From assembly GCF_001761325.1 (NCBI RefSeq), contig NZ_CP017478.1, forward strand, positions 2,315,501 to 2,379,500: DNA of 64,000 nucleotides, given 5' to 3'. The DNA comes from Urechidicola croceus. GTDB taxonomy: Bacteria > Bacteroidota > Bacteroidia > Flavobacteriales > Flavobacteriaceae. The notes beneath the pieces are model-generated. The model worked only from the letters and a program-made list of their open reading frames with translations. It had not been told where the DNA came from and did not search any database. Positions 15,946 to 62,536 of the stretch are shown piece after piece (positions within the stretch are counted from its first letter, which is position 1; each line of letters begins with the position of its first letter). Both the position numbers and the translations under genes were made by a program.

Positions 15946-16166
15946 AATGAGTAGGTTTGATTTTTTATACATCAAAAATTATACCGATACTAAATGTAGT
16001 AAATTATCTATAAATTATTTATTGAGAAAATCGGATTTACTTTTTATTGCTATTAACACTAAACTTCTTTGTTAATTATTTAACAATTTGAAAAAAAATG
16101 ATAAAAATCTGTCAAAAAAAATATAGTTCGTTCTTTTTTACAATATTTGCATTTCAAAATTTTAAG

Positions 16167-16186
16167 ATTCCTGTCTGTGCAGGAAT
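16167..16186 (+). repeat. Short inverted repeat upstream of asd
   Basis: ATTCCTG and CAGGAAT form a 7-bp perfect stem around a 6-base loop, 24 bases before the asd ATG. The sequence looks like a flavobacterial intergenic repeat (consensus style ATTCCTG...CAGGAAT) rather than a terminator, as there is no T run. A related CCTGTGC stretch lies at about 17294 after the gene. Confidence 0.45.
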
Positions 16187-16210
16187 AACAATTATCTAAA
16201 AATAATAATT

Positions 16211-17259: not shown

Positions 17260-17278
17260 ATTTTGTTTTTAAAAACTT

Positions 17279-17332
17279 GTCATTCTTAACTTGCCTGTGC
17301 TGAACTAGTTTCAGTATTTCAGAATCTCATCA
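17279..17332 (-). repeat. Degenerate, nested copy of the palindromic repeat family
   Basis: On the minus strand this begins TGATGAGATTCTGAAA and ends AAGTTAAGAATGAC, the two ends of the repeat found at 24972 and 61385. Between them lies a second small hairpin, CTGAA-ACTAG-TTCAG, plus extra bases, as if one element had inserted in or recombined with another. It lies in the asd-ygiQ gap, next to the copy at 17351. Confidence 0.6.
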
Positions 17333-17350
17333 TAATGTGCATCGTGTAAT

Positions 17351-17378
17351 GCGACCCCGAAATAAATTCAGGGTGACG
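17351..17378 (+). repeat. Palindromic repeat copy, GC-shifted stem
   Basis: ACCCCGAA-ATAAA-TTCAGGGT followed by GACGTT. Loop, flank and spacing equal the copy at 52461, but the outer stem bases are changed on both arms (CC against GG), so pairing is kept apart from one wobble. This indicates the same repeat family with selection or a mechanism preserving the hairpin. Confidence 0.65.
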
Positions 17379-17391
17379 TTGTAGGTAAAAA

Positions 17392-24971: not shown

Positions 24972-25003
24972 GTGATGAGATGCTGAAACAAGTTCAGCAT
25001 GAC
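24972..25003 (+). repeat. Palindromic repeat copy
   Basis: The 32 bases read GTGATGAG-ATGCTGAA-ACAAG-TTCAGCAT-GAC. The 8-bp arms pair perfectly. Compared with the copy in gltX (61385-61416, opposite strand) there are only two differences, one in each arm and at paired positions, so the hairpin is preserved by a compensatory change. It lies between the DAO gene and dinB. Confidence 0.8.
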
Positions 25004-25016
25004 GATTAATAATCAT

Positions 25017-52439: not shown

Positions 52440-52460
52440 TCTAATTTTTATAAGATTGTT

Positions 52461-52487
52461 ATGATTCTGAAATAAATTCAGAATGAC
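52461..52487 (+). repeat. Palindromic repeat copy
   Basis: ATTCTGAA-ATAAA-TTCAGAAT followed by GACGTT; the 8-bp arms pair perfectly. It lies in the 56-base gap between the GNAT and CDF genes. The flank and loop are the same as in the copy at 17351; the stem equals that in gltX. Confidence 0.75.
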
Positions 52488-52495
52488 GTTATTAC

Positions 52496-60997: not shown

Positions 60998-62536
60998 TTA
61001 AAGTGTTGAAATTGCTTTTTCAATACGTTGAATAGTTTCTTCTTTTCCTATTAGTTCTACAATATCAAATAAGTGAGGACCACTCATTGCTCCAACAAGC
61101 GCTAATCTAAAAGGAGGCATCACTTTTCCGAAACCAAGTTCGTTAGTTGTCAACCATTCTTTAACAATAGTTTCAATATTTGCAGATGAAAAATCTTCAA
61201 TTTCTGAAAGAACCGAAATTAAATTTGTCATTATTTCAGGAGTTCCTTCCTTCCATTGTTTTTTAGATGCTTTTGCATCGTATTCTTTTGGAGTTTCAAA
61301 AAAGAAACTACTTAAATCCCAAAAATCATTAACAAACGTTGCGCGTTCTTTAATTAATCCAACGACTTTCGTTACAAAATTTTTGTCATTCTGAACTTGT
61401 TTCAGAATCTCATCACTACATTTTTGTTTTAAAACAGGTATGAATATTTCTGCTAATTCCTCATCAGATTTAGATTGTAAATACTGTTGGTTATACCATT
61501 TTGTTTTATCTGGATCAAATCTTGCTCCTGATTTATTAACTCTTTTTAAATCAAATGATTGAACTAATTCTTCTAATGAAAAAATTTCTTGTTCTGTTCC
61601 TGGATTCCATCCTAAAAATGCTAAGAAATTAATCACAGTTTCTGGAAAATAACCATCTTCTTTATAACCTCTTGAAACTTCTCCAGTTGCTTCATTAGTA
61701 TATGCTAATGGAAACACAGGGAAACCTAATTTATCTCCATCACGCTTGCTTAATTTACCTTTTCCAGTAGGTTTCAAGATTAATGGTAAGTGTGCAAATT
61801 CTGGCGCATCCCAACCAAATGCTCTATATAATAAAACATGTAAAGCCATAGAAGGTAACCATTCTTCACCTCGGATAACATGACTAATTTCCATTAAATG
61901 ATCATCAACAATATTCGCTAAATGATATGTTGGCATTCCATCAGATTTAAATAAAATTTTATCATCAAGAACATTTGTATCAATTTTTACTTCACCACGG
62001 ATAATGTCATTCATCACCAATGTCTCATCTTGTGGAGATTTAAAACGAACAACATATTTATCACCATTTTCTATTCGTTTTTGAACTTCATCAGCAGTTA
62101 AAACTAATGAATTTACCAAACGACCTTTTTCTCTATTGTGCCAATTGTAAATAAATGTTTTCCCTTTTTCTTCATGATCTTTTCTATGCGCATCTAATTG
62201 CTCTGATGTATCAAAAGCGTAATAAGCATTACCAGAATCAAGTAATTCTTGAATATATTTTTTATAAATATGTTTACGTTCTGATTGACGATATGGTCCA
62301 AATTTTTCATTTTTTCCAACTCCTTCATCAAATGGAATTTCTAACCAATTTAATGCATCTGTAATATATTGTTCTGCATTGGCAACATAACGAGTTTGAT
62401 CAGTATCTTCAATGCGAAGTATGAATGTTCCGTTGTGTTTTTTGGCAAATAAATAGTTAAAAAGGGCAGTTCTTACACCACCAATATGTAATGGTCCTGT
62501 TGGACTTGGAGCAAATCTTACTCTTACTTGTGTCAT
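60998..62536 (-). CDS. gltX: Glutamyl-tRNA synthetase with an in-frame palindromic-repeat insertion
   Basis: The 512-residue class I synthetase charges tRNA-Glu. The HIGH-type signature is SPTGPLHIGGVRTALFNYLF (H17-I-G-G), the KMSKS-type motif is KLSKRDG, and the C-terminal anticodon-binding region follows. In that region, a copy of the genome's palindromic repeat (61385-61416) encodes SDEILKQVQNDK, which looks like an insert between the normal LKQK and NFVTKVVGLIKERATF parts. The reading frame is kept, so the enzyme should still work. The gene has its own promoter. Confidence 0.97.
   Translation of the reverse strand: MTQVRVRFAPSPTGPLHIGGVRTALFNYLFAKKHNGTFILRIEDTDQTRYVANAEQYITDALNWLEIPFDEGVGKNEKFGPYRQSERKHIYKKYIQELLDSGNAYYAFDTSEQLDAHRKDHEEKGKTFIYNWHNREKGRLVNSLVLTADEVQKRIENGDKYVVRFKSPQDETLVMNDIIRGEVKIDTNVLDDKILFKSDGMPTYHLANIVDDHLMEISHVIRGEEWLPSMALHVLLYRAFGWDAPEFAHLPLILKPTGKGKLSKRDGDKLGFPVFPLAYTNEATGEVSRGYKEDGYFPETVINFLAFLGWNPGTEQEIFSLEELVQSFDLKRVNKSGARFDPDKTKWYNQQYLQSKSDEELAEIFIPVLKQKCSDEILKQVQNDKNFVTKVVGLIKERATFVNDFWDLSSFFFETPKEYDAKASKKQWKEGTPEIMTNLISVLSEIEDFSSANIETIVKEWLTTNELGFGKVMPPFRLALVGAMSGPHLFDIVELIGKEETIQRIEKAISTL
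61385..61416 (-). repeat. Palindromic repeat copy inside the gltX coding region
   Basis: In gltX sense: GTGATGAG-ATTCTGAA-ACAAG-TTCAGAAT-GAC. The arms pair perfectly (8 bp, 5-base loop). It is in frame and encodes SDEILKQVQNDK. It differs from the intergenic copy at 24972 at only two paired positions. Presence within an essential gene shows the element can move or spread, as the Rickettsia palindromic elements do. Confidence 0.85.

Follow-up and report, generated by a model that had tools for sequence, protein, structure and literature searches.

Hairpin Repeats in the Window

What kind of element is the short hairpin that recurs at five places in a 64,000-nucleotide stretch of the Urechidicola croceus genome, and by what means has it spread? 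This stretch (hereafter the window) corresponds to positions 2315501–2379500 of a single 3,426,122-bp contig, and the genome is designated G000. A preliminary description, based on the letters alone, had suggested a spreading REP/MITE-like element, perhaps moved by a transposase encoded elsewhere, or a structure with an RNA role at gene ends. We found that all five reported places hold the repeat. A covariance model built from genome copies recovered four of them in the window scan (E values from 1.7e-13 to 4.3e-9), and the fifth proved to be a 56-nt form (G000:2332777–2332832), which was detected at E 4.7e-4 in the genome scan and at 12 bits and E 0.48 in the window scan. The features of the window are as follows.

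16166–16189, reverse strand: diverged member of a second family of CGTC type (stem ATTCCTGC; two mismatches)
17277–17332, reverse strand: long 56-nt copy, a CGTC-type hairpin with a 23-nt module in its loop; covariance model
17294–17316, reverse strand: inner module of 23 nt, TACTGAA-ACTAG-TTCAGCACAGG, which splits the 5-base loop as A/module/CAAG
17347–17379, forward strand: partner copy, loop ATAAA; covariance model
24973–25005, forward strand: single copy, stem ATGCTGAA, loop ACAAG; covariance model
52457–52489, forward strand: single copy, stem ATTCTGAA, loop ATAAA; covariance model
60998–62536, reverse strand: gltX, glutamate--tRNA ligase, 512 amino acids, host of an in-frame copy
61383–61415, reverse strand: copy within gltX, read in frame as DEILKQVQND; covariance model

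The long copy, whose outer arms (17282–17289 and 17318–17325) form seven of eight pairs, makes up an inverted pair with the copy at 17347–17379, the tags of both facing outward. The copy at 24973–25005 occupies the gap separating a FAD-dependent oxidoreductase gene from an impB/mucB/samB-type polymerase gene, and that at 52457–52489 the gap separating a GNAT acetyltransferase gene from a cation-efflux gene. The last copy is not in a gap; it is located in frame within gltX.

Unit Design, Genomic Occurrence, and Covariation

The repeat unit is approximately 33 nt long. It carries a (C)GTC tag at one end and a TCNCAT-like tail, its stem consisting of 8 bp and its loop of 5 bases. Read from the tail it has the form TGATGAGA-stem-loop-stem-TGACG, and from the tag CGTCA...TCTCAT; two loop types, ACAAG and ATAAA, are common. 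The 8-bp arms and 5-base loop described previously were confirmed as the general design, but the stem has one unpaired position in the 17347 copy and one in the long copy. Likewise, the GATGA said to precede the left arm is complete in some copies, but others lack the full motif.

A consensus scan allowing up to three mismatches detected 61 places in the genome, and the reversed pattern detected none. The covariance model, built from 42 of these 61 places which we selected, gave at least 81 matches at E ≤ 0.1 and at least 75 at E ≤ 0.001 across the whole genome; these are lower bounds because 150 first-look candidates out of 5,871 or 5,766 (two scans) were scored. The matches, at least 81 in number, group into 55 genome places. 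Occurrence is patchy among relatives: the family is present in 20 of 60 genomes, with 0 to 62 hits per genome.

In the 42 aligned rows, the TGACG consensus adjoins the right arm, and A30 and C31 are invariant under a search pattern that itself required TGAC within three mismatches. Four of the eight stem pairs are invariant, three have changed on both sides, and one deviates by a single unpaired row only. The first pair is A-T in 41 rows; the second is T-A in 24 and C-G in 13. The search pattern placed no constraint on the two most variable pairs and required the others to match within three mismatches. Under this pattern, these rows (42 of 61 places) contained 37 double changes over three of the eight pairs, compared with 10.7 in shuffled alignments, and none of 500 shuffles reached this value. 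The covariation score was 0.284 versus 0.077 after shuffling (0 of 500 as high), and structures slid along the alignment scored 0.003–0.084. No excess was seen in further pair types in the stem (7 versus 7.5 in shuffles, 42 rows). The outer stem pairs change together with their partners, as had been proposed, and to an extent beyond that of 500 shuffled alignments. Arm-to-arm copying in replication could also produce such compensated changes, as could the replacement of a copy by another one.

Folded as single-stranded DNA, the copies at 24973, 52457, and 61383 were more stable than their shuffled versions (z = −3.8, −5.0, and −2.8, respectively), and the margin was weaker for the 17347 copy (z = −1.5). 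Neither the long copy (z = 0.18) nor the whole 17277–17379 pair (z = −0.68) folded better than shuffles.

Arrangement and Clustering of Copies

Among 26 adjacent pairs of units, 21 have their tags outward, three have them inward, and two are in tandem. As judged by eye, every one of the 21 outward pairs joins units which are unlike in stem or loop, that is, heterodimers. Since there are at least 81 matches, inverted pairs, covariation, and patchy copy numbers, the idea of a spreading hairpin element of the REP/MITE-like type is well supported.

The 55 places are not evenly distributed. Neighboring places are no more than 5 kb apart in 22 cases, compared with 4.2 expected and a maximum of 13 in 10,000 simulations, and the first 1.53 Mb of the genome holds only four places. 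Twenty places fall in the regions of the his (hisG, D, C, B, A, and F), arg (proC, an argD-like gene, argB, an ArgE/DapE-like gene, and argH), bio (bioA, bioD, and a bioF-like gene), and trp (trpG, D, C, FB, and A) operons, which make up 1.04% of the genome and were delimited after the clusters had been seen, their genes being named by NCBIfam. In the trp region (G000:3174379–3184645), repeat copies are found at all four gene junctions from trpG to trpA, and two other genomes (G012 and G009) have a repeat pair within trpF.

A second CGTC-type family (stem ATTCCTGC) occupies 26 genome places, including 16166–16189 of the window. Fourteen of these have a first-family match at a distance of 1 kb or less, the random expectation being 0.75. 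One second-family copy (G000:3178613) is located in trpF and is read in frame as FLRRQES.

In-Frame Copies within Protein-Coding Genes

Open reading frames of at least 90 amino acids overlap 24 of the 81 matches. Thirteen copies, in ten ORFs, were counted as in frame; the 11 others were dropped as N-terminal extensions (hisC, argH, bioD, and trpA among them) or as antisense or unsupported short ORFs, and an ORF-based count of this kind is blind to genes already broken by insertion. Single copies are present in mnmE, bshC, mvaD, a beta-ketoacyl-synthase-like gene, metG, trpF (of a trpF-trpB fusion), and gltX, and two copies each in a bioF-like gene (as a pair), leuS, and a DNA-glycosylase-like ORF (as a pair). 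Some of these hosts, including gltX, are essential genes. Four of the hosts (bioF, the trpF-trpB fusion, the beta-ketoacyl-synthase-like ORF, and the glycosylase-like ORF at 3182882) score under the curated NCBIfam cut-off; the glycosylase-like ORF is the weakest assignment and contains two of the 13 copies.

The common A-type unit is open in three of six frames. In-frame copies, which occur in either orientation, use the frames encoding DEILKQVQND or RHSELVSESH, and none of the 13 uses the third, hydrophobic frame VILNLFQNLI; the probability of such avoidance is (2/3)^13 = 0.005 if copies are independent, and 0.017 if counted by ORFs.

Alignment with the orthologs of relatives placed the in-gene sites in variable loops. 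Most orthologs lack the insert or have another insert in the same loop, and the relatives are too diverged for exact empty sites to be read at the base level. At the leuS site, ten of 13 relatives have a short loop and three a different insert, the copies of G000 being shared by none of these 13; the metG peptide was absent from all 12 aligned relatives. On the other hand, the bshC peptide is kept exactly or nearly so in two of nine relatives, and mnmE has an intact copy in one of 11 relatives and a decayed copy in one. At the mnmE site of the two species with intact copies, the stem is ATTCTGAA/TTCAGAAT in one and ATGCTGAA/TTCAGCAT in the other, a compensated change. For mvaD (G006), bioF (G002), and trpF (G012 and G009), relatives were also found to have family copies in the same loop, with an orientation that sometimes differs.

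In GltX, the peptide DEILKQVQND corresponds to residues 375–384. Structure prediction (mean pLDDT 84.7; 72 and 80 for the two blocks of the insert) suggested that it forms a short helix (375–382) between helices 358–372 and 385–398. The best public matches of this protein, from an uncultured Lutibacter and other Flavobacteriaceae, have at most 82% identity, and none of 30 aligned relatives, which we picked from 80, contains the peptide. Several of them have other inserts at the same linker, some of which may derive from other repeat families; peptides such as VIASEAKQS, at this linker in other genera (loci L093 and L098), may likewise represent other repeat families, to which they bear a resemblance. 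A literature search, mostly outside subscription papers, found no paper on in-gene flavobacterial copies.

An alternative is that the hairpin is retained as a structured RNA, influencing the stability, processing, or attenuation of mRNA at operon junctions or the ends of genes. In favor of this view are the conserved, covarying hairpin and the 20 places in the four operon regions chosen post hoc, many of which are at gene junctions. However, copies occur between genes of the trp and his operons as well as inside coding sequences, where either orientation is found, their numbers are patchy among species, and those in leuS and metG are not shared by the relatives aligned. In addition, an Rfam scan of the window detected no family at the gathering score. 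A T run (at least five T in the eight bases past the hairpin) follows one of 77 full copies on the tag side and two of 77 on the tail side, so the copies do not look like terminators, and intrinsic termination was rejected as a function. Although a role in mRNA stability or processing is possible, it appears rather unlikely that the family is maintained as a functional RNA.

A Nested Module in Hairpin Loops

The second hairpin inside the long copy had been described as if one element had landed in another. This proposal was supported, and the event is recurrent. Five copies of the 56-nt nested form were found in the genome model search, and the 23-nt module has eight known genome copies, six of which are in loops of CGTC-type hairpins. 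Five of the six split the loop ACAAG of the present family, three times as ACAA/G and twice as A/CAAG, with no loop base duplicated or lost, so that removal of the module restores ACAAG exactly. The sixth (G000:2297088) is in the loop of another CGTC-type hairpin. Of the other two, one (2393470) has a surround that appears decayed and was not confirmed by script, its best stem having six pairs, and one (3359117) has a best stem of seven of eight pairs lacking a CGTC tag. Random 23-nt windows give seven pairs in 5.7% and eight pairs in 0.4% of trials; because seven pairs arise this often, the six accepted copies rest on the tag together with the arms.

Nested insertion into these loops has occurred without target-site duplication. 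The mark of a DDE-type MITE is thus absent from the five nested copies, a result that concerns the nested module and not the REP units. The absence of any duplicated or lost loop base speaks for a route similar to single-strand transposition, and against a DDE transposase; IS200/IS605-type insertion is not known to leave a target duplication. Because the split takes two recurrent forms, insertion may have happened only two or three times, with the module then spreading within a compound element.

The module pattern has a match in 16 of 60 genomes, G000 included, and its reversed control gave one hit in 60 genomes; some of the 16 may be chance hits. Copies with two mismatches were sought in 11 loci. 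In other genera, the module is also present outside CGTC loops; one such copy is at the 5′ end of an RNase P RNA, and another lies approximately 70 bases upstream of a tmRNA.

Candidate Enzymes for Movement

One proposal was that a transposase elsewhere moves the repeat. The elements could be REPINs spread by a host RAYT (Y1 HUH transposase), and the REPIN design, hairpin units in inverted pairs, is similar to that observed here. G000 has a single Y1 transposase match (L001:1411–1986, 191 amino acids), and a Y1 match is present in six of nine genomes with at least five repeat hits. The protein carries YIHNNP, the Y motif given for Bacteroidetes subclass 2.6, whereas its SHVH differs from the other motif of that subclass, NH[LIV]H (PMC6006769). 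However, upstream of this gene are three copies of a CCCGCTAGTTTGTAACTAGTGGCG-type palindrome unrelated to the CGTC-tagged repeat, of which the 3.2-kb locus contains no copy. Repeat-bearing genomes with no Y1 match include G009 (98% complete, 17 hits), G018 (90%, 15 hits), and G005 (77%, 11 hits). Across 60 genomes, the presence of Y1 and that of the repeat were not associated (Fisher P = 1.0 and Spearman rho = 0.10, kinship and genome incompleteness uncorrected), nor were they within the genus (rho = 0.27, P = 0.35, kinship uncorrected). In 29 of the 67 Y1 loci of relatives, which were scanned for the repeat, only one confident copy approximately 1.2 kb away (L187) and one weak partial match (L186) were observed. 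RAYT is not supported as the mover in G000, and we consider this explanation improbable.

The DUF559 (Vsr-like) nuclease was considered as a mover because it is present inside leuS. It was rejected, since it showed no association with the repeat, with Fisher P = 0.41 over 60 genomes (kinship and genome incompleteness uncorrected) and Spearman rho = 0.35, P = 0.23 within the genus. DUF559 is present in six of nine genomes with at least five hits and absent in G009 (17 copies) and G018 (15 copies), which thus have neither Y1 nor DUF559. Thirty of 36 DUF559 loci were scanned; the leuS of G000 has two in-gene repeat copies, and two other loci gave weak matches.

DUF559 domains are themselves inserted in frame in conserved proteins, at G000:2119004–2119297 (L218) and at loci L203, L204, L206, L208, L213, L214, L216, L219–L221, L226, L227, and L229. 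The hosts read as LeuRS (the seven genus members inspected and two other genera), IleRS (one genome), RecG (the same site in two genera), and MetH (a shared site in two families that belong to one order). The LeuRS of G000 alone was named by family search, the rest being named by eye. No paper on in-frame DUF559 inserts was found in a literature search, mostly outside subscription papers.

Spread by homologous recombination, gene conversion, and horizontal operon transfer would need no dedicated transposition enzyme. It is compatible with the failure of both Y1 and DUF559 to track the repeat, with the shared neighborhoods of the two hairpin families, and with the in-gene sites that have family copies in more than one species (bshC, mnmE, mvaD, bioF, and trpF). 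Nevertheless, single copies within unrelated genes need an insertion step, as does loop insertion at different positions with no base lost, and recombination alone seems very unlikely to account for the family.

Relationship to Known Palindromic Repeats

The repeat belongs to an already known kind. CGTC repeats are listed for five phyla, including Bacteroidetes (Di Nocera et al. 2013, PMC3733652). They form a super-family of short palindromes, each with an unpaired tag (CGTC, or TGTC/CCTC) on one side, and are mostly organized as inverted (HH) dimers, other arrangements being rare. They seem to be without a dedicated transposase, and their mode of movement is given as an open question (PMC3733652). 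The nearest family is CGTC-2, which has an 8-bp stem, a 5-base loop, predominant heterodimers, a tail that is mostly CCA, and A and T paired almost invariably at stem positions 1 and 2 (PMC3733652). The present repeat shares with the CGTC-tagged REPs so described the CGTC tag, the 8-bp stem starting A-T, the 5-base loop, inverted dimers, heterodimers, intragenic copies, and the lack of a linked transposase; assuming that tags-outward means HH, the 21 of 26 outward pairs match the HH dimers (PMC3733652). In contrast to CGTC-2, the tail is TCNCAT-like and not CCA, and the second stem pair, T-A in 24 of 42 rows, is often C-G (13 of 42) (PMC3733652). We therefore filed the repeat under the CGTC super-family and not under CGTC-2, because it lacks the CCA tail. 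The nested loop module, which is unusual, and the crowding in operons are features not met in the available part of the CGTC account (PMC3733652).

Two Rickettsia palindromic elements are themselves CGTC repeats (RPE-4 = CGTC-4 and RPE-6 = CGTC-1; PMC3733652). Like these elements, the units studied here lie in frame within conserved protein genes, a likeness of habit, in a different host phylum. With REPIN/RAYT systems they share inverted hairpin pairs as non-autonomous units; unlike those systems, they have no GTAG tag, and no RAYT flanked by the repeat was found in the scanned loci.

Proposed Mode of Spread and Implications

Taken together, it is likely that the copies are CGTC-tagged REPs, that is, non-autonomous selfish hairpins which are recognized and moved in trans in a single-stranded form. 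The unit exists mostly as an inverted heterodimer with tags outward, and its single-stranded hairpin would be recognized by an enzyme acting in trans, the route of movement probably being through single-stranded DNA. In-gene copies would be retained only if the reading frame remains open and the peptide falls in a tolerant loop. A further and more tentative hypothesis, to which we give limited credence, is that the module is a satellite of mobile hairpins that inserts without target duplication into the single-stranded apical loops of more than one CGTC family, the CGTC REPs being moved by a non-Y1 enzyme acting on single-stranded hairpins. If true, extruded DNA hairpin loops would themselves be integration targets.

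Three aminoacyl-tRNA synthetases, GltX, MetG, and LeuS, carry repeat-encoded peptides and thus presumably tolerate them. The genus provides a workable set for investigating how CGTC REPs move, with many copies and related species that have or lack a given copy, and it also offers essential genes that contain copies in frame, as well as loop-nested modules with exact junctions.
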